The notes beneath the pieces are model-generated. The model worked only from the letters and a program-made list of their open reading frames with translations. It had not been told where the DNA came from and did no database searches. From contig NZ_CP045354.1 in NCBI RefSeq assembly GCF_009363435.1, positions 2,074,501 through 2,138,500 of the forward strand: a stretch of 64,000 bases of DNA, given 5' to 3'. Each line of letters begins with the position of its first letter. Position 1 is the stretch's first letter. Below are positions 28,584-59,798 of this stretch, piece after piece. The position numbers and the translations under genes were made by a program. This stretch comes from Labrenzia sp. THAF82 (lineage in GTDB: Bacteria; Pseudomonadota; Alphaproteobacteria; Rhizobiales; Stappiaceae).

Positions 28584-29681
28584 CTAATTGGAGGCGTTTT
28601 TGGTCGGCCAGGTGTTTGACCAATTGGACAAGTCGGGGGGTGTGCCGTCACAGGTTTTTCGTGTCGCTTCTTCCAGCAGCACCAGTCCTGTTCCGTTCCA
28701 GCTCCACCGGTTCCAGAGCCCGCATTCGCCGACGCCGGAGCCCTTGAAGTAGCTTATAAGTTGCTGATCTGCCGGGATCCATCTTGCGTTGTAGATCAGA
28801 TCCGATGCAATCGGCCCCTTTTCAGACATGCGAGCGACATGCACCTGACGCGCGGCTCCGTCCTTGCCAGAGAGCACGGCAACATAGGGACTGTTTATAG
28901 CGGTGGGTGCGCCGCACGGAATAATATAAAGCGATGACGTGTCTTCAAGAGGCACGCGGACGGCGTTGAGGCTCGCGAAGATTGTCGGGTCAATTTCGGA
29001 GCACAGCCTGTTGGCGGACCAAACGGCGGCGACTTCCGGCGGCAATTGATCTGCGCTGACGACCGGGACTGCATGCGGAGCATCTTTGGCAGGCTCATCG
29101 CCCTTTGATATGATTGCGGCAACGGTGCCGGTACGATCCTGCCGATTGTCGAGCCAGAGCAAGCTGGCCTTCAGGCCTTGCAAGGGAACAGGGACAGCAA
29201 CGGGATCTGCATCTCCCACGGAGGGCAATTGAATTGTCAGTTCCCGGCCGGAACGCATGGCCTCCAGCAATGTCACTGTGGCTGGGCCCGTCGGATACCA
29301 GAAACCTTCACCGCCGAGCGGGCGGAAGCCTGCAGGAGGTGTCACTGCGGTCTGCATCTCGCGCAGTTGCTCGATCGGCAGCGCCTCAATAACGCCTCCA
29401 TCAACTTCAAACTGTAGTGTTCCGTCCTGAGGCAGCTCCGTGTTGGTTGTCAGACGCACCAGAGGTTGGGCCTCTGCTTGCCAATCACGAACGATCCGAA
29501 CATCCACCCAGACGGATTGGGACCTGGTAAAGGAAGACGCAAAACACACACCCGTATTGCCGCAGTCAACGGTCCAGCCTTCAAAACTGGGAGCCGTTCT
29601 GCCGGGCTGCGCCATTCCCGCCGAGGCGGGGACAAGGGCTGCCGCCGTTGTTATCAGCAGTGTTAATAGTCTTCGCTTCAT
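28584..29681 (-). CDS. Exported DUF1176 protein
   Basis: A 365-residue periplasmic protein. The signal peptide is MKRRLLTLLITTAAALVPAS with cleavage after SAGMAQ. The N-terminal domain (FEGWTVDCGNTGVCFASSF) resembles the invasion-associated locus B type fold. The C-terminal domain ends with the DUF1176 pattern VGECGLWNRWSWNGTGLVLL then KTCDGTPPD, with paired cysteines. Function is unknown. A paralogue with the same layout lies at 47995-49209. It precedes the cold-shock gene on the same strand by 214 bp. Confidence 0.82.
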   Translation of the reverse strand: MKRRLLTLLITTAAALVPASAGMAQPGRTAPSFEGWTVDCGNTGVCFASSFTRSQSVWVDVRIVRDWQAEAQPLVRLTTNTELPQDGTLQFEVDGGVIEALPIEQLREMQTAVTPPAGFRPLGGEGFWYPTGPATVTLLEAMRSGRELTIQLPSVGDADPVAVPVPLQGLKASLLWLDNRQDRTGTVAAIISKGDEPAKDAPHAVPVVSADQLPPEVAAVWSANRLCSEIDPTIFASLNAVRVPLEDTSSLYIIPCGAPTAINSPYVAVLSGKDGAARQVHVARMSEKGPIASDLIYNARWIPADQQLISYFKGSGVGECGLWNRWSWNGTGLVLLEEATRKTCDGTPPDLSNWSNTWPTKNASN

Positions 29682-36007: not shown

Positions 36008-38038
36008 TTAAATGATGAACACGTCAGACTGGGCATCAAGGTCAAGATGTCCAAGCAAGATGACGGAGACATCTGCGTTTTGACCGGCATCGTCCCGAAT
36101 GTGAACCACCGTTGCATCTCCGATGCCGTCAACGTCGAAAAACGTGTGCTCAAAATAAGCTTCAGCACCTAGGCCGTTTGAGAAACTCGACTGTTCTCCG
36201 AGGAAGTTCGCGCCGCCAAAACCCTCGAAAAAGAGCATGTCACCGCCATCACCGAAATCGAAGATGATGTCCATCGGATTGCCGCCAGCACCACCGCTGT
36301 CACCGGACTGGAAATGGAATGTGTCCCAGCCTGAGCCTCCGAAAAGGCCATCGCCAAAGTTGAAACCCTGGCTGTTGGTTCCGCCACTGATGAAGTCGTT
36401 GCCTTCACCGCCATTTATGAGGTCAATGCCGGCACCTCCGTAAAGACTGTCAGCTCCATCCTCGCCATAAACCAGGTCGTTGCCGTCGCCGCCATATTGC
36501 GTATCGTTGCCGATCCCGCCATACAATTTGTCCCGGTCTTCACCGCCGAACATCTGATCGGCTCCTGACCCGCCATTTATTGTATCTTCTCCTTGCTGCC
36601 CATAGAGGAAGTCGTTGCCGCCGTCGCCATTGACTTCGTCGTCGCCTTCGCCGCCGTAAAGGGAGTCATTGCCCCAACCGCCGTTCAGGACGTCGGCACC
36701 ATTCTGACCCCACAGGATGTCGTTGCCGTTGGCGCCCGACATCACGTCATCGTCATTCCCGCCCTGCATGGCATCAGCGCCAATTCCGCCATACATGGTG
36801 TCGGCGCCGTCGCCACCCCACATCAGATCGTTGCCGGAACCACCGTTCAGATTGTCATCGCCGTCTTCACCATAAAGCCGGTCGATACCGCTGCCGCCGA
36901 AAAGGGTGTCGTTTCCTTCTTCGCCGAAAAGGGTATCGTTTCCGGATTCGCCGTAGAGGGTGTCGTCGTCCCGGCCACCGCGGAGAGTGTCGTTGTCGCT
37001 ACCGCCGTAGAGAATGTCGTCTCCAAAGTCGCCATAGATCAGATCCTCACCGTTGCCGCCGTAAAGTCTGTCGTCACCAGTGCCACCACTGATCACGTCA
37101 TCGCCGTCCTGACCATAGACGCGGTCATTGTGCCGGTTTCCGTAGAGGCGATCGTTTCCATGACCGCCATAGAGGAGATCATCGTCATTTCCGCCATAAA
37201 GATAATCGTCACCGTGGCCACCGTTCAGCAGGTCGTTTCCGCCGTCGCCTTCCAGAGTGTCGTTGCCGGTTCCGCCGAGAAGTTCATCATCGCCGCGCCA
37301 GCCTGACAGGTAGTCATCACCGGTGCCGCCATTGAGGGTGTCGTTACCATCATGACCGTAAAGTTTGTCGTCGCCGCTATCGCCGTTAAGTCGGTCTGCG
37401 CCTTCTCCGCCATAAATGTAGTCGTTGTCGCTGCCACCGTAAGCAACATCGTTGCCGCCGTTGAGCCAGAGATTGTCGACGCCACCGAGACCGTAGGCAA
37501 TGTCGATGCCATCGCCACCGGCATAAAAATCGTCACTATACCAGTCGATCCAAATGGTTTGATCCAGCGGCTGGAAATCTCCAGCCTCAAAACTGGGATT
37601 CGGCGGAAAAGGTTCAAACTGGTTGGCTGCGCCCAGTTTTTTCAGGTTTGAACTTAAATTTGACTGAAGGCGAGACATCGCGCTGGCAAAGTCCGATTCC
37701 AGTTCGGCAATGACGTTCCAGTTTGCAGACTCTTGATCGTCAGCTTGAGAATTGGCCAATCCAAGTTGCTTGAGATTGTTTTGCAAGCGGCCACGCATTG
37801 CGATTGGTTCCTGACCACCTTCGCTCTCGAACTCGACATCGATGATTTGGCTTTCACGCCCGGTGCGTCGGCCATTATCGTCGCTGAAAATGGTGTCACG
37901 TCCTTGCGTTTCTGAGATGAATTCCTCAGTTTCGCTGGCTTTGGCACCCTCTCTGAGGTTCTCAGAAGGTCGCAATAGTTCAAATTTACCGGTATTGGCA
38001 GGAGATGTGTTTGCTCGGCCAGTTAGCCTGGTAGACAT
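36008..38038 (-). CDS. RTX calcium-binding repeat protein, probably type I secreted
   Basis: A 676-residue acidic protein. Residues about 170-560 are dense GGxGxDxLx nonapeptides (for example LYGGHGNDRLYGNRHNDRVY), which form calcium beta-rolls outside the cell. There is no N-terminal signal peptide. The C-terminal 110 residues (IFDFGDGGDMLFFEGFGG to DLDAQSDVFII) fit an uncleaved type I secretion signal. The N-terminal 160 residues contain two copies of a RLQxNLxxLGxAN-like helix (about 84-96 and 123-139). No enzymatic domain is visible, so it may be structural or adhesive. No type I exporter is encoded nearby. Confidence 0.92.
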   Translation of the reverse strand: MSTRLTGRANTSPANTGKFELLRPSENLREGAKASETEEFISETQGRDTIFSDDNGRRTGRESQIIDVEFESEGGQEPIAMRGRLQNNLKQLGLANSQADDQESANWNVIAELESDFASAMSRLQSNLSSNLKKLGAANQFEPFPPNPSFEAGDFQPLDQTIWIDWYSDDFYAGGDGIDIAYGLGGVDNLWLNGGNDVAYGGSDNDYIYGGEGADRLNGDSGDDKLYGHDGNDTLNGGTGDDYLSGWRGDDELLGGTGNDTLEGDGGNDLLNGGHGDDYLYGGNDDDLLYGGHGNDRLYGNRHNDRVYGQDGDDVISGGTGDDRLYGGNGEDLIYGDFGDDILYGGSDNDTLRGGRDDDTLYGESGNDTLFGEEGNDTLFGGSGIDRLYGEDGDDNLNGGSGNDLMWGGDGADTMYGGIGADAMQGGNDDDVMSGANGNDILWGQNGADVLNGGWGNDSLYGGEGDDEVNGDGGNDFLYGQQGEDTINGGSGADQMFGGEDRDKLYGGIGNDTQYGGDGNDLVYGEDGADSLYGGAGIDLINGGEGNDFISGGTNSQGFNFGDGLFGGSGWDTFHFQSGDSGGAGGNPMDIIFDFGDGGDMLFFEGFGGANFLGEQSSFSNGLGAEAYFEHTFFDVDGIGDATVVHIRDDAGQNADVSVILLGHLDLDAQSDVFII

Positions 38039-41989: not shown

Positions 41990-42208
41990 GTATCGTTCCT
42001 TTTCGTTTCCCGAATAGCCATGCACCAGTCGGTCGAAGCGTTAAATTGACCATATGCCGGATGTTTCAGACTGAAAATCGGGCATTTGTCCGATGGATCT
42101 TGGTCCGCTTGTCAATCAGAGATCTGAACAGCTGCTTCCGCATTTGCAATCATCTGCAATGTCGACTTGGCGGCAATCAACGAAGTCTCATGTGATCTGA
42201 GGACAAGC

Positions 42209-43702
42209 ATGCCATTTTCTCTGTCTCGGCGACATTTTATTGCCGGAAGCGTTTCCGCATTCAGCGTCGGTTTTACTTGCCCTGCCTGGTCAAACATGCA
42301 GCCGACGCGATTGCCGATACCTGAACTTGTCGACGGCACCAACGGCGACCCTGTCGATCTGCAAATTCGCACTGGCAAGCGCGCTTTTTTGCCGGGGTTG
42401 GAAACCTCAACGCTCGGGATCAGCCAGGACTATCTGGGTCCGACACTTCGAACGCGCCGGAACAGTGAACTCAATTTGAGTTACACCAATTCCTTGAGCG
42501 AAGGCGTCGCCATTCATGGCCACGGATTGCATGTGCCTGGAATTGTCGATGGAGGGCCGCAGCTTGAAATCGCGCCGGGAGATCAGTGGCAGCCTAGGCT
42601 GTCGATCCTGCAGCCGGCCGCGACCTGCTGGTACCACTCTCATACGCACGGTAAGTCCGGTGAGCAGGTTTATCGTGGCCTGGCTGGCATGATTATCATC
42701 GATGATGAGGAGAGCGATGCAATCGATTTGCCCTCTCGCTATGGCGTCGATGATTTGCCCGTCATTATCCAGGACCGAACGTTCGATGCGCAGGGTCAGT
42801 TCGTATATTCCCTGAACGAGGCCGGGGAAGATGGGTGGTTCGGAGAAACCGTGCTGATCAACGGGGCCATAGCACCATTGGTTGCTGCCGTGCCCGCCGG
42901 TAAGGTGAGGCTTCGGGTGTTGAATGGAGCCAATGCCCGGTTCTACGTCCTTGCATTTGCGGACAACCGAACCTTTTTCAAGATCGGCAGCGACGGTGGT
43001 TTGTTGGCGGAACCGGTCCCCATGACAACAATGGAAATGTCGCCGGGCGAGCGCTGCGAGGTTGTCGTTGATCTATCAGACGGGGCTTCAGCTGAATTGC
43101 TTGTCTTTTTCGAAGATGAGATTGACGCCGAAGAAGAAGGGCTGATCAGCGGCTTGCAAAACATTTTCAGTGAAACCAATGCGCCTTCAACAAATTGGTC
43201 TTTGAAGCTGAATGTCGATCAGGCTCTTGTCGCTCACAAGGCTCCGTTACCCGACGTCCTTGCATCAATTGTCCGGCCCGAAGAGGCCGAGATAGCGAAT
43301 GTCCGCGACTTTGTCCTCGATATGGAGGATGGCGGTGATCATGGAGCGCATGCAGGTCACGCTGCAATGGATATGACCATCAATGGCGCAGCGATGGATA
43401 TGTCCGTCATCAATGAGCGGGTCAAACGAGGTGTCTGGGAACGGTGGCGGGTCCGTTCCAATCAGGGCGCCCACCCGTTTCATGTCCATGGATGTTCGTT
43501 CCTGATCGAGCAGATGGAAGGCTCTGTCACGCCTCCAGATCAGCAAGGTTGGAAGGATACGGTGGTGCTTGATGATGACGACTGGTCCGAGTTTGTCGTG
43601 CGGTTTGATCATCCGGCAACGGAGCAGCACCCGTACATGTATCACTGCCACATTCTGGAACATGAAGACCGCGGCATGATGGGCCAATTCACGGTCACCT
43701 GA
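42209..43702 (+). CDS. Tat-exported multicopper oxidase (CueO-like)
   Basis: A 497-residue periplasmic oxidase. The start at 42209 puts the Tat motif (LSRRHFIAGSVSAFS) at residues 5-19. Copper ligands are present: HGHG at 103-106, WYHSHTHG at 141-148, HPFHVHG and YHCHILEHEDRGMMG near the C-terminus, so both the trinuclear and the type 1 site look complete. A His/Met-rich stretch (HGAHAGHAAMDMTINGAAMD) before the last copper motifs resembles the CueO methionine-rich insert. It probably oxidises Cu(I) or other substrates in copper tolerance. No copper ATPase or chaperone is adjacent. Confidence 0.93.
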   Translation: MPFSLSRRHFIAGSVSAFSVGFTCPAWSNMQPTRLPIPELVDGTNGDPVDLQIRTGKRAFLPGLETSTLGISQDYLGPTLRTRRNSELNLSYTNSLSEGVAIHGHGLHVPGIVDGGPQLEIAPGDQWQPRLSILQPAATCWYHSHTHGKSGEQVYRGLAGMIIIDDEESDAIDLPSRYGVDDLPVIIQDRTFDAQGQFVYSLNEAGEDGWFGETVLINGAIAPLVAAVPAGKVRLRVLNGANARFYVLAFADNRTFFKIGSDGGLLAEPVPMTTMEMSPGERCEVVVDLSDGASAELLVFFEDEIDAEEEGLISGLQNIFSETNAPSTNWSLKLNVDQALVAHKAPLPDVLASIVRPEEAEIANVRDFVLDMEDGGDHGAHAGHAAMDMTINGAAMDMSVINERVKRGVWERWRVRSNQGAHPFHVHGCSFLIEQMEGSVTPPDQQGWKDTVVLDDDDWSEFVVRFDHPATEQHPYMYHCHILEHEDRGMMGQFTVT

Positions 43703-47994: not shown

Positions 47995-49209
47995 CTAGCC
48001 ACCCATTTCGTCGATCGTCCAGCTAAGCGGCCAGCCTTCCGGGGGGCCCGTGACGCCGTCGCAATTGGATTTTTCCTGATATTCCATCAGCGTGAAGTTG
48101 CCCGACTCGGCTTCCATCTCATGGCGCTCGAACGCGCCGCAATCATAGTTTGGCGAATAATATGTGGTGCCTGTCACCTGGCCGCTATCCGGGTCAAAGA
48201 ACAGGTTGTTGACGAGCGCATGATTGGGCTGGTTGAAGTCCGGCGGTGTCTCGAATTCCTTAAGCTCGTCAAGAGACGGGTTAAAGGGAATGTGGACCAT
48301 CATGTAGAAGGGCACATTGGCATCGGCCATGGTGCAGGGGACAACCCAGGTTTCGACATCGCCCTCGGCGTAGTATTGCGCACCGAAGGCCGGCACGGTT
48401 TCTTCAAGCGCGCAGTCTAGTACCCTATAACCGGTCATCTGGACCGAATCCGGCACTTCACTCAGGCTATACACCTGACCGACAGGTCCGCTCAGGCCCG
48501 CAGTTTGATCCTGCGATGGCATCACCGGAGGCGGCAGGTCGTTGGCAGGGGCAGCAGACGCTGCGTCCGATGACGAGGCCGTGTCTGTTGCCGCGGCAGC
48601 ATTGTCGCGGGCAACAGGCTGGCTCGCGGTCGAAGGCGCCGCTGCGATACCGGTGGCTTTGTCCGACGACAGGCCACCCCGGGCAACTATGGCGTCCAGA
48701 CGGCCGATACGGCCCTGAACCTCATCCATTTTCAGGAGGGAATGAGTGATGCCATTCATCGACACCCAATAGGTGAGTGTTCCGGTGGATCCGCCGAATT
48801 CGATCTGGACGGCAGCATCTTCACCCATTCGCAGTTTCTCGATGAGGTCCCGATCGGATGCGCCGCCAAAGGTCATTTCATTGCCCTTGTAGACTTTGTC
48901 GACCTTGCCGAAATAGCCGTAATTGTCTTCTTCAAGGCTTTCGATCTCGATGCGCGCCGGCAGGCCGACCTGCAGCTCCGTCGTCGGATCAAAGGTGACA
49001 TAGACCTGGCTGGCGGGTTTTGCACCGCGCTCGATCTTCAGGCGGAACGCTTCGCCATTCGAACTCTCGCCGCTGGTAACGGCAATGCAGTAAGTGTTCT
49101 CATCGCAGGAAACCGACCACGTGCCGAAGTCGGTTTTGGCCAACTCCGCAGAGGCGCTGCTCACGCCCATGAGCAATACACTCAGAGAAAGAAAAATTCG
49201 ATACGCCAT
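47995..49209 (-). CDS. Exported DUF1176-like protein, second copy
   Basis: A 404-residue protein with a signal peptide (MAYRIFLSLSVLLMGVSSAS). The N-terminal domain (FGTWSVSCDENTYCIAVTSG) resembles invasion-associated locus B proteins. A linker at about 190-245 is rich in Ala, Ser and Asp. The C-terminal domain carries YDCGAFERHEMEAESGNFTL and KSNCDGVTG. The whole layout parallels the protein at 28584-29681, so they are probable paralogues. Function unknown; periplasmic location is likely. Confidence 0.75.
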   Translation of the reverse strand: MAYRIFLSLSVLLMGVSSASAELAKTDFGTWSVSCDENTYCIAVTSGESSNGEAFRLKIERGAKPASQVYVTFDPTTELQVGLPARIEIESLEEDNYGYFGKVDKVYKGNEMTFGGASDRDLIEKLRMGEDAAVQIEFGGSTGTLTYWVSMNGITHSLLKMDEVQGRIGRLDAIVARGGLSSDKATGIAAAPSTASQPVARDNAAAATDTASSSDAASAAPANDLPPPVMPSQDQTAGLSGPVGQVYSLSEVPDSVQMTGYRVLDCALEETVPAFGAQYYAEGDVETWVVPCTMADANVPFYMMVHIPFNPSLDELKEFETPPDFNQPNHALVNNLFFDPDSGQVTGTTYYSPNYDCGAFERHEMEAESGNFTLMEYQEKSNCDGVTGPPEGWPLSWTIDEMGG

Positions 49210-49441
49210 GTCAGCCCCCTCTGACCCAGATCATGCCTTGAAGATGACGACGTTGCGTGCGTTGTCAATCGATCATTCGGTCTGCCGCGTGTGGGAAAAC
49301 CACTCGACAACCAATGCGGCTCGCGGTTCTTGGGGTGTGCAACCAATTTTCCGATGTTTCGTGTATCAGGGACTGTATCGTCATTGGGAGCCTTACATTT
49401 TTTGCGGCCGGTCCTATGTCTTCGCCGATGGAGCGCGCAAA

Positions 49442-50755
49442 ATGATCCAAACCCCTGCCGGTGAGTTGCCAGACACTTCCCGTCTTTTGCGGGCCGAGCA
49501 GCGTGGTCTGAGGCTTGCCATCATTTGCCGGACGCTTGTCGTCGGCGCAGCGTTCCTGTGGGTAGGTTCTTCCTGGGTTGCCTTCGGCTTTTATCCCAAT
49601 CCGCTGGTCTTCGGTGTGCTGGGTGCATTCACCGCCGTCGGCATCGCGCATGCCGCAGTGATAGGAACGCGCTTCGACCGCTGGTGGATGAAATTCGCGA
49701 TCTACACGGTCGACATTCTCGGGATATGTGCCGTCTTTGCATTTTTGCCCCTGGTCCAGGGAGAGGCGGTGCCGCAAATCCTCGCCTTCAGGGCCTACGG
49801 CATCTACTACCTGTTTCCGCTTGTTGCCATGGCGACACTGTCCTTGTCACCGAGACTGGTTCTCTGGTCCGGCGGTGTTGCGGTGGCCGGTTGGTTCGCA
49901 GCTTTTTTTGTCGCGATCTCGGACTTGGAAACCACGCTTTCCTGGTCGGACCTGACCCCCGGGGCTTCCAGGGCAGACTATGAGGCGCTGTTTCTGTCTG
50001 CCAATTTCATCGGGCGCGGCAACCGGATCGAAGAGACCGGTTTCCTGATGATTGCAACGCTCATCCTGGCGCTTGCCGTGCTGCGTGCCCGCCGGGTTTT
50101 CATGGCTCAGGTCGCTGCCCAGGCAGAGCGCGAGCAGATTGCGGCGACACTCGGTCGTTATGTGCCTGAAGCCATTGCCCGTCGTTTGATCGACGATCCG
50201 TCCGCACTTGTCCCGCAAGAACGTCATGCGGCAATCCTTGTCATGGATATTGCGGGCTTTACGGCCTATTCGGCTGGTCGCATGCCGACCGAAGTGATTG
50301 AAAACCTGAACGACTTCCTGTCCGGCTGTGCAGAAGAGGTCAGTCGGCACGATGGGGTCGTCATTCAGTTCACCGGTGACGGACTGATGGCCTCCTTCGG
50401 TACGCCGATTGACAGCGCGCACCCGGAGCAGGCTGCGGTTGCCGCCAGCAACGCGCTGATCGCTGAAGCGGGCGAGGCCGGTTTTTCAATCCGCATCGGA
50501 CTGGCAGCTGGTCAAGTTGCTGCTGGCAGCATCGGTTCATCAGATCGGCAGGCCTTTACTGTCTACGGTGACACGGTCAACCGCGCTGCCCGCCTGGAAG
50601 CACAGGCCAAGGTTCTCGGGCGGTCTGTCCTCATGGATGCCAACGTTGCCGACCGGCTCTCAAAGGACGACCTTGTTTCACTCGGGCCCCAGCACCTGCG
50701 CGGACTTGCCGATCCAATTCCGGTTTTCGCACTGCCTATGCAGATGCCAGATTAA
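49442..50755 (+). CDS. Membrane class III adenylate/guanylate cyclase
   Basis: A 437-residue protein; I take the ATG at 49442 because upstream frame sequence has no signal or membrane pattern. The N-terminal 220 residues contain about six membrane helices in a 2+2+2 arrangement. A short linker (ATLGRYVPEAIARRLI) leads to the catalytic domain at about 260-400 with metal-binding Asp269 (LVMDIAGFTAYS) and Asp313 (IQFTGDGLMASFGTP), and VYGDTVNRAARLEAQAKVLG supplying the Asn/Arg transition-state residues. This is a complete homodimeric cyclase. The base preference cannot be called. A caspase-like gene follows 129 bp later. Confidence 0.92.
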   Translation: MIQTPAGELPDTSRLLRAEQRGLRLAIICRTLVVGAAFLWVGSSWVAFGFYPNPLVFGVLGAFTAVGIAHAAVIGTRFDRWWMKFAIYTVDILGICAVFAFLPLVQGEAVPQILAFRAYGIYYLFPLVAMATLSLSPRLVLWSGGVAVAGWFAAFFVAISDLETTLSWSDLTPGASRADYEALFLSANFIGRGNRIEETGFLMIATLILALAVLRARRVFMAQVAAQAEREQIAATLGRYVPEAIARRLIDDPSALVPQERHAAILVMDIAGFTAYSAGRMPTEVIENLNDFLSGCAEEVSRHDGVVIQFTGDGLMASFGTPIDSAHPEQAAVAASNALIAEAGEAGFSIRIGLAAGQVAAGSIGSSDRQAFTVYGDTVNRAARLEAQAKVLGRSVLMDANVADRLSKDDLVSLGPQHLRGLADPIPVFALPMQMPD

Positions 50756-50884
50756 ATTCCGCAGCGTCAATATGTGCAACGAACCGGCCAGGGCTGGTAT
50801 AGTCCGCAAGCGTATGTGCGTTCGGAATTTGAGGAGCCTGTAGGCAACATGCTGGTCCGGCCATACCGATGGGGGAAGCAATTG

Positions 50885-52033
50885 ATGAGAAAAGCCGCCG
50901 CAGCACTTGTCGGAACTGTTCTGTTTCTGCTGCCATTTTCGGCTGTGGCAGATGGCAAACTGGCTCTGATCATCGGCAACGCCGCCTATGACAATGTCTT
51001 GCCGCTGGACAATCCGCCGCGTGATGCAGATCTTGCATCCAGAACCTTTGCCGCGCTCGGGTTCGAAACCCGACTGGTGCTCAATGCCGATGCCTCGGAG
51101 ATGCGAACAGCACTTGCCGCGTTCCGGCAGGATGCTGTCGATGTCGATGTAGCGGCCATCTTCTTTGCCGGTCACGGCGTTCAGGCAGACAACGTCAATT
51201 ATCTGCTCGCGACTGATACCGGCGCTGCCACGCGCGCTGTCTTTGAGGAAACCGCCGTCAGGATGGAAGAGTTTCTAGAAGCGCTAGGGGCATCGTCCGG
51301 TGTCAAACTGCTGATCGTGGACGCCTGTCGGGACAATCCCTTTGCCGCAACACGGTCCCTGGAAAAACTCTTCAATCCGGACGCTTCCGGTCTGTCCAGG
51401 GTCAATCATCAGCTCTCCGACCTGATGGTGATCTACTCCGCCCAACCCAACCATCTGGCCTATGACGGCGATGGGCAGAACAGCCCGTTCATGGAAGCCT
51501 TCTCTTCTGTTCTGACGGCACAGGAAGAAGTAAAGCTGACCGAAGCCTTGATCGACATCACCAATTTTGTGCGCACGCGAACCGGTGACAAGCAGCTGCC
51601 CTATACCGAAGGCACGCTGTCGGTTCATCTGCAGTTGACCCTCGAGCGCCCGCTGCAAACGGCGATGCCCGTGGACGAGGGGTCCTGCCCCGCAGACGGA
51701 GAGATCCTCTCGCTCGAGGCGCCGGACCGCTACCTGGAATATGACCATGACCTGCAAGCCCTGTTGCTGACTGACCGCGGCAACACGTTTCTGGAAGTCT
51801 GTGTTCTGAACGGTGCGCTTCTGGTGTCCGGCGGCTTTGGCCAGACCTACTCCCCGGCAGACCTTCGAAATCCCGACGACGGAGGCGCCGGTTACTATTT
51901 CAAGACCGGTGGCGGTCACGACGCGCATTTGTGGTTCTACGCCGACCCGGCAAACCCCGATGCGACTGTCGAGATCGGTCTCTACGTTAACGGCAAGGAA
52001 CGGTCGTGGATCACGACCGGGTGGGCACTGTAA
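50885..52033 (+). CDS. Exported caspase-like (peptidase C14) protein
   Basis: A 382-residue protein. The start at 50885 gives a signal peptide (AAAALVGTVLFLLPFSAVAD). The caspase fold follows: KLALIIGNAAYDNVLPLDNP, the catalytic His97 (FFAGHGVQAD) and catalytic Cys148 (LLIVDACRDNPF), both present. After about 240 the protein has a separate domain (SCPADGEILSLEAPDRYLEY) ending in WITTGWAL that I do not recognise. Metacaspase-like proteins usually cleave after basic residues. It is on the same strand as the cyclase and may share its transcript. Confidence 0.9.
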   Translation: MRKAAAALVGTVLFLLPFSAVADGKLALIIGNAAYDNVLPLDNPPRDADLASRTFAALGFETRLVLNADASEMRTALAAFRQDAVDVDVAAIFFAGHGVQADNVNYLLATDTGAATRAVFEETAVRMEEFLEALGASSGVKLLIVDACRDNPFAATRSLEKLFNPDASGLSRVNHQLSDLMVIYSAQPNHLAYDGDGQNSPFMEAFSSVLTAQEEVKLTEALIDITNFVRTRTGDKQLPYTEGTLSVHLQLTLERPLQTAMPVDEGSCPADGEILSLEAPDRYLEYDHDLQALLLTDRGNTFLEVCVLNGALLVSGGFGQTYSPADLRNPDDGGAGYYFKTGGGHDAHLWFYADPANPDATVEIGLYVNGKERSWITTGWAL

Positions 52034-52806: not shown

Positions 52807-55824
<3,018 letters not shown>

Positions 55825-56103
55825 ACCGGCCAATATGGTCCGGTTGCGCGCGCGAGGGAAGAGGGCCGTTGCGGTTTTGTTCCGCAAATTCAAACTTCCT
55901 GCCACTCTCCTGACAGAACGGTGTCAGGAGGTTTTCTAAGACCCATCCGAAGCAGCCCAGGATTTTGAAGGCAAGTGCAAGTTCGGGCAGCATTTTCAGC
56001 TCCACAACCTTGTTACCACAGGTGGTTGTATTTATCTGCCGCTTCTTATGGTTGCTAACTGTATCTGCCTGTAGTTTACTTTCGTCGCGGATAAGTGCCG
56101 TAG

Positions 56104-58737: not shown

Positions 58738-58916
58738 TTCAGTCTCCCGATGAGTGTCGCATCGAGCGTAAACTTTCTTGAGAATTTGTAATGGAGCTGG
58801 ATCTGGTCAAAGCTCTTTCTGTGCGTATTCTGAAGACCTCTGTGTGGCCTGGAACAAATGGATCAGGCAGTCAAACGAGTGTTTCAGGACAGACCCGGCG
58901 AGAGCGATTGAACGAG

Positions 58917-59798
58917 ATGACGAAAAGCGAGACCAAGCAGATTTCCCGTAGAACCGTTCTGGAGCTGTCGCTTGCCGGAGCTGCCGGCCTGACGGCCGGA
59001 ACAGGATTTGCCTTCGGTGCCACAGAAGCGGCTGTTTCGCTTGAAACGGAGTTTCGGTCACATTTCGGCCAGTTGGGCTACAAAACGACGGAGCCACTCG
59101 GGCTGCTGACAGGCGATAGCTTCAATGGCGGTCTGCGATATGACGAGACTTTGGAAGTTCCTGTTTCCGGCAACAGCCTGTTTGTCCAGCCAGCCTCGAG
59201 ATTGGAAGACATTGCGCGTCGCAATGAAACCGGTGTTCTTGCCCTTTTTACAATCTGCGGCATCCGCCAATCGGCCCCTTTAGAGCAAGGCAGTCTATTT
59301 GCCGCCTTGTTGTCTTTCCTGGTTGAAAACGCCAAGCTTGATCCTGCCCGGATGGTGTTTGTTTCGACAGATGTTTTTGCTCCCTTCGCGGAAACAAACG
59401 ACTTGGTCCGGGCCGGTCGAACCTTCCTGAGGCCAACGGACGAGGCTCGCGCCGAAGGTGACGGGTCCGGCTACTTTGCCCCAAAGGGGCATCCAGCGAG
59501 CCCCGGATACCCGACGGTGAGTATCCATTATCCATTGAGTGCGGGCATGGAAGATGGACTTGCCTATCCTCCGGTAGGGCACCTTGAGATTGCGGAAATC
59601 GGGATCACACCGTCCGGGCAGTCGAAATCGGCAGCTGAAGTTGGCGGCATCGGTCTGGAACGGATGGCTTTTGCTGCAACCGGTGTCATGCCCAGTTTTG
59701 AGGACAGCCGGCAGGACCTGCTCGACCGCCTGAAAGCCGAAGCCGAACGCGACGGCAAACCATTGCCTGCCGGGTATGAGATTTTTGCCGAGCAGTAG
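58917..59798 (+). CDS. Tat-exported protein with AlaRS-like (class II synthetase) motifs
   Basis: A 293-residue protein from the ATG at 58917. Residues 10-35 are a Tat signal (SRRTVLELSLAGAAGLTAGT). The mature part recalls the alanyl-tRNA synthetase catalytic domain: a motif-2-like CGIRQS near 114, a LDPARMVFVSTDVF segment near 141 like the AlaRS LPxDRLxVTV stretch, and a textbook class II motif 3, VGGIGLERMAFAA, at 242-254. The usual tRNA-binding and editing domains are absent. An exported synthetase fragment would not charge tRNA outside the cytoplasm; an amino-acid- or nucleotide-binding role is possible. Homology is by eye only. Confidence 0.55.
   Translation: MTKSETKQISRRTVLELSLAGAAGLTAGTGFAFGATEAAVSLETEFRSHFGQLGYKTTEPLGLLTGDSFNGGLRYDETLEVPVSGNSLFVQPASRLEDIARRNETGVLALFTICGIRQSAPLEQGSLFAALLSFLVENAKLDPARMVFVSTDVFAPFAETNDLVRAGRTFLRPTDEARAEGDGSGYFAPKGHPASPGYPTVSIHYPLSAGMEDGLAYPPVGHLEIAEIGITPSGQSKSAAEVGGIGLERMAFAATGVMPSFEDSRQDLLDRLKAEAERDGKPLPAGYEIFAEQ

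Follow-up and report, generated by a model that had tools for sequence, protein, structure and literature searches.

The gene described here probably encodes an exported class II synthetase core of the alanyl-tRNA synthetase (AlaRS) type, which would bind a ligand and would not charge tRNA. We consider it reasonably probable that the gene represents a new family of AlaRS cores which, stripped of their tRNA parts, would be exported through the Tat pathway and would serve as ligand-binding proteins or enzymes. All coordinates are positions within the window, that is, the whole stretch of 64,000 nt that was analysed.

The gene and its family

The ORF of the preliminary description is present at 58917-59798 (+), and it carries the features attributed to it: the twin arginine at residues 11-12, the motif 3 VGGIGLERM at residues 242-250 (59640-59666) and AlaRS-like segments that the alignments place in the same order as in AlaRS (Table 1). 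The frame is open 5' of 58917, as far back as an ATG at position 58791. G808 and G009, the nearest relatives, have a frame that closes within a few codons 5' of the ATG corresponding to 58917, and the start was therefore set there.

Table 1. Features of the gene and of its predicted product, in window positions
Feature	Residues	Position	Strand	Basis or remark
CDS, Tat-type leader plus class II synthetase-like domain	293 aa	58917..59798	+	ORF and family alignment
Predicted twin-arginine leader	1-37	58917..59027	+	Leader end inferred; no A-x-A in the window member
Twin arginine codons	R11-R12	58947..58952	+	Invariant, 18/18
Motif-1-like helix and FNGGL stretch	45-73	59049..59135	+	MAFFT alignment
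Motif-2-like hairpin (Q91, R95, D98, F111)	89-115	59181..59261	+	
LDPARMVFVST	141-151	59337..59369	+	Colinear with AlaRS 'L-x-x-x-RL' after motif 2
GDGSG loop	181-185	59457..59471	+	G183, G185 18/18
LEIAEI	223-228	59583..59600	+	Colinear with AlaRS EIWNL; E224, E227 17/18
Motif 3, VGGIGLERMAFA	242-253	59640..59675	+	G246, R249 18/18; E248 17/18

A whole-genome search found relatives in 10 of 61 related genomes, and within the genus of the window the gene is patchy (12 of 45 genomes). It occurs in at least 6 of 397 genomes at the level of the order, at least 2 of 385 at that of the class and at least 1 of 398 at that of the phylum, the last being the window's own; around two outlying members the counts are 1/1 and 3/30. 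For order, class and phylum, up to six candidates were scored in each genome. These genome sets overlap, and all except the two outlier sets include the genome of the window. A search of a plasmid collection with three proteins gave no match, and no family member was found in viral contigs.

Eighteen complete members, with identities down to 27%, were aligned; the partial member of G1141 and L011, a relative 81% identical to the window protein and a copy of G009, are not among them, and alignment A3 contains 17 rows, with G808 omitted. Sixteen residues are invariant (R11, R12, N70, G72, Q91, D98, L108, F111, T151, R172, G183, G185, Y205, G246, R249 and A253, each 18/18), R95, E224, E227 and E248 are kept in 17 and E/D97 in 16. 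The preliminary description had named loss of the twin arginine or of the motif-3 Gly, Glu and Arg from the homologues as evidence against its reading; when this was checked, the twin arginine proved to be conserved in 18/18, G246 and R249 likewise in 18/18, and E248 in 17/18. Four pairs gave dN/dS values of 0.24, 0.11, 0.07 and 0.13, a fifth pair being saturated. Since the twin arginine and R249 remain invariant down to 27% identity and dN/dS is low, the pattern goes beyond chance: the family is real and under purifying selection, but patchy among the Alphaproteobacteria. In the tree the window protein joins G808 (99/97) and then G009 (94/99); of its 15 inner branches 5 are left open, and it does not settle the deep branching order.

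Comparison with class II synthetases

The library searches gave no convincing match for the domain. With the 18 members, no synthetase model of Pfam, PF01411 included, was matched at E up to 10, and a PF01411 search of the gene's own genome at E up to 10 did not find the gene. The best non-leader match of the 18 members was to archaeal AlaRS in NCBIfam, by one member only (E 0.098); the remaining non-leader matches in Pfam and NCBIfam were single and at chance level (E 0.13 or weaker). In the PDB no AlaRS chain was matched at E 10 or better, and motif 3 of phosphoseryl-tRNA synthetase (SepRS) was matched at E about 1; the matches to CinA and norsolorinic acid synthase (E 0.2 and 0.69) were taken as chance. 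PADLOC gave no match for 17 mature members (E up to 1), nor did PHROGs for the window protein, the latter library yielding three single-member matches at E 0.069 or weaker. In view of these results, the kinship was tested against controls.

The first hhalign comparison, made with the leader on and against a 460-aa piece of AlaRS, did not reach significance: it scored 22.11, which 7 of 100 shuffles exceeded. The query was afterwards cut to the mature domain, and the target to the catalytic domain of AlaRS. The mature family then scored 37.12 in global mode, 100 column shuffles reaching at most 14.1, and 26.98 in local mode, where the shuffles reached at most 23.37. In a second run over 54 windows (AlaRS plus 53 other real or reversed profile windows), the AlaRS catalytic window came first in global (31.3, next best 7.7) and in local mode (27.8, next best 22.5); in this run the PheRS windows were mis-built, consisting of pheT pieces or other frames, and the remaining decoy windows came from frames taken as the longest or by greedy choice, without individual checks. 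Against the PheRS alpha subunit the scores were 37.53 (local) and 23.86 (global), the best of 100 shuffles being 23.7 and 9.83, and against Asp-type synthetases 24.3 and 2.3.

Comparison by halves located the likeness. The first half matched the first half of AlaRS (local 27.78, 1/60 shuffles higher; global 22.05, 0/60) and the second half its counterpart (local 28.14, global 17.25, 0/60 shuffles higher in each), and there was no hhalign match of either half with the wrong half of AlaRS. With PheRS alpha, the second halves matched at 35.73 (local, probability 80.5, 0/60 shuffles higher), the first halves giving 19.09 in local mode (1/60 higher) and 1.64 in global mode (47/60).

The HMM of the mature family reported all 23 AlaRS sequences (L065 was dropped, its start missing), with a median of 3.7 bits and a best score of 11.9. 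All 24 PheRS alpha sequences, which were Pfam-matched pheS stretches, were reported as well (median 2.95 and best score 6.3, with most of the matches at motif 3), together with 14 of 24 Asp-type sequences (best 2.5). The shuffled controls were mostly below zero or unreported: 221 of 460 shuffled AlaRS were reported, with a best score of 7.6 followed by 3.3, and 226 of 480 shuffled PheRS, with a best of 2.5; the single shuffle at 7.6 bits outscores 18 of the 23 real AlaRS. Reversed AlaRS were reported in 12 of 23 cases (best -0.4), and one of 24 reversed Asp-type sequences scored 6.0. In an earlier run, which kept the leader and used the 460-aa piece of AlaRS, 10 of the 23 AlaRS scored above 3.0, the maximum among 460 shuffles, and above 2.4, the maximum for an unrelated frame (250 frames were included, of which 16 belong to the family); most matches in this run were colinear at the first helix and motif 3, some lying elsewhere.

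Owing to the profile and half comparisons, we regard the protein as a class II core that is of AlaRS type overall and whose second half is also near PheRS. The class II kinship proposed beforehand is upheld by profile comparison and refined: the likeness over the whole domain is to AlaRS, but the second half fits PheRS alpha equally well or better. Very probably, the protein is a class II core of the AlaRS type, devoid of tRNA-binding and editing domains. Sequence comparison is what yields the class II homology, the absence of the other AlaRS domains, the retention of the twin arginine and motif 3 and the loss of the Asp that holds the amino group.

The family is colinear with the AlaRS catalytic domain (PF01411, tRNA-synt_2c) from the first helix through motif 3, and shares with it, among others, F50, L63, N70, G72, D98, F111, E224, I225, G244, G246, E248 and R249. 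Unlike AlaRS, it has an export-type leader, lacks the tRNA-binding helical, editing and C-Ala domains, the protein ending 40 residues past motif 3, and has V242 in place of the amino-group Asp and a Gln aligned to the motif-2 Arg; identity is about 15%. Judged by its sequence, then, the protein is not an AlaRS: it has no PF01411 match, the Asp is lost and the tRNA parts are absent. The PheRS alpha subunit (PF01409) resembles the family in the second half, up to motif 3, its first half being weakly similar at best. According to the accessible text of PMC4938167, one scheme places AlaRS, PheRS and SepRS in one subclass, and another unites AlaRS with the alpha subunit of bacterial GlyRS (GlyQ) in a proposed subclass IId. 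Escherichia coli GlyQ, the one sequence compared, touches the family profile in two places, the first helix and GLERLAM; this comparison was set aside as too weak, its 0.8 bits lying within its own shuffles (best 1.3). The amino acid:carrier protein ligases, tRNA-free class II paralogues likened here by description only, also consist of a core without tRNA-binding domain. They and other paralogues are presented in the accessible text of a review (PMC9437257) as tRNA-free class II proteins serving outside translation, and the words 'periplasm', 'secreted' and 'signal peptide' are absent from that text.

Domain parts and active-site residues

Three MAFFT modes concur in the first helix, in Q91, R95 and D98 of motif 2, in the EI stretch and in motif 3. 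N70 and G72 stand opposite the Asn and Gly of AlaRS TNAGM in two of the three modes, which differ by one residue at F111 and also around residues 207-212. The class II motif 3, GxGxER with its invariant Arg, is present in the family. The motif-2-like stretch contains R95 (17/18), E/D97 (16/18), D98 and F111 (both 18/18), but it is Q91 that the aligners set opposite the AlaRS Arg.

In AlaRS the adenine stacks against Phe89 on one side and Arg232 on the other, the alpha-phosphate is held by Arg68, and the amino group by Asp225 (Asp235 in E. coli), as described in the accessible part of PMC12143591. The adenine-stacking motif-3 Arg corresponds to R249, present in 18/18. Its distance from the Arg identifies the stacking Phe as the second one of AlaRS TFFE; HMMER, hhalign and one MAFFT mode set F111 on this second Phe, and two MAFFT modes on the first. 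At the position of the amino-group Asp the family has A, G, L, S, V or Y, the residue here being V242, and the Asn that follows EIW in AlaRS is replaced by E227 (17/18). The aligners set Q91 (18/18) opposite the motif-2 Arg and R95 (17/18) opposite the next Lys. Nevertheless, R95 within R-x-E/D-D may be the canonical motif-2 Arg, because AlaRS has an insertion between this Arg and the acid (PMC4938167, accessible text). The residue pattern fits a pocket that may still accommodate a nucleotide-like group but would no longer bind an amino acid as AlaRS does. The preliminary description had suggested that the fold was reused for binding a nucleotide, an amino acid or a cofactor, a proposal with which this pattern is compatible.

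Proposed role and export

The Tat pathway exports folded proteins. In the arrangement that we infer as regards export, fold, ligand binding and the absence of charging, the protein would fold in the cytoplasm and then leave via Tat, its mature part (about 255 residues) being a single AlaRS-type catalytic core without tRNA charging. The old ATP/aminoacyl pocket would most likely bind a small ligand, perhaps nucleotide-like or with a planar ring, and outside the cytoplasm the protein would serve in binding or sensing, or would be an enzyme without need of ATP. Because key residues of AlaRS chemistry have been lost or have shifted, binding or sensing is preferred to catalysis; the enzyme is kept in consideration because many polar residues are invariant.

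Among these residues, N70, Q91, D98, T151, R172, Y205 and R249 (with R95, E224 and E227 in 17/18) suggest chemistry more than simple binding, and R95-x-E/D-D could provide the class II motif-2 Arg. An active exported enzyme, performing acyl, nucleotidyl or amide transfer on a pre-activated substrate or an adenylation-like reaction in reverse, is nonetheless rather unlikely: Q91 is aligned opposite the motif-2 Arg of AlaRS, the loci outside the genus showed no conserved partner gene and no ATP supply is known outside the cytoplasm.

The leader bears on another alternative, which we hold to be improbable, namely that the AlaRS-like domain is real, the leader is unused and the protein is a cytoplasmic enzyme comparable to the amino acid:carrier protein ligases. 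To our knowledge, tRNA-free class II paralogues, these ligases included, are cytoplasmic only; moreover, the window's own leader matches Pfam TAT_signal at E 0.046, under the curated cut-off, and A-x-A was not found in the window's protein. However, in all 18 members RR, at residue 5 or 11, is followed by a hydrophobic stretch (judged by eye), and A-x-A follows the leader in 14. With E up to 10, TAT_signal matches 8 of the 18 members (best E 3.7e-05) and NCBIfam TAT_signal_seq matches 6, and in the PDB search the leader matches that of the periplasmic nitrate reductase precursor (E 1.4). Judged from the leader alone, export through Tat is likely.

It is very improbable that the protein is a new Tat-exported fold devoid of synthetase kinship, with GxGLER and the short matches as coincidence, for although HMMER gave no convincing synthetase match in Pfam, NCBIfam or the PDB and the first profile comparison was not significant, the global profile score exceeds those of shuffles and decoys by a wide margin, each half pairs with its proper counterpart in AlaRS, and PheRS alpha is matched by the second half at a probability of 80.5.

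Class II synthetase cores have been repeatedly reused, and the reused cores known to us are cytoplasmic because their chemistry runs on ATP. Searches of an open-access literature collection, for an exported or Tat-tagged synthetase-like protein and for AlaRS paralogues, listed no such case, which does not prove absence. If the AlaRS-type core is indeed exported and conserved, the fold can work without ATP-driven charging, and the family would offer a small single-domain protein for asking what the oldest part of an essential enzyme does alone. The question is directly testable, since the bacteria that carry the family are marine and belong to a genus available in culture.

Genomic surroundings

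Upstream of the gene, on the same strand, lies a gene for an M15-type peptidase, and downstream a convergent choline-sulfatase-like gene, which adjoins or is near the family gene in the genus. This proximity says little, because the sulfatase gene is present in 37 of 45 genomes of the genus (E up to 1e-50), and the idea of deriving a function from this genus-wide neighbour was dropped. Thirty sulfatase loci were searched for up to 1.5 kb on each side, 12 of them from genomes with the family gene; within this range no remnant of the family gene was seen at the 18 other loci, 4 of which gave weak matches only (E 0.004 to 0.052), the range being one that misses the family gene itself in G016 and G022 and that in L095 is limited to 273 bases on the side in question. 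Loci outside the genus have other neighbours (DUF922 and DUF72; DsbB and MFS; DHDPS and an ABC transporter), and no neighbour common beyond close kin was seen there at the context loci, where the neighbour genes of eight loci were called with codon-position G+C and the other calls include some antisense frames.

Between 58600 and 60000 no sigma-70-like site was found, and the one terminator-like site was not above chance; ARAGORN found no tRNA gene in the window.

Several other genes of the window may be recorded. An adenylate/guanylate cyclase gene precedes one for a caspase-like (Peptidase_C14) protein that apparently has a leader (49094-52033, +), and a multicopper oxidase with an RR leader (42167-43702, +) is another possible Tat substrate. 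On the minus strand lie a protein in which 15 stretches match RTX calcium-binding repeats (36008-38038) and two DUF1176 proteins (28584-29681 and 47995-49209). A 1032-aa protein with long low-complexity N- and C-terminal extensions (52807-55905, -), is probably UvrB-like; at 8 of the 17 context loci a relative of it lies close to the family gene. Close to one family member outside the window, a SLATT_3/SLATT_1 membrane protein is encoded (L043:10584-11453, +).
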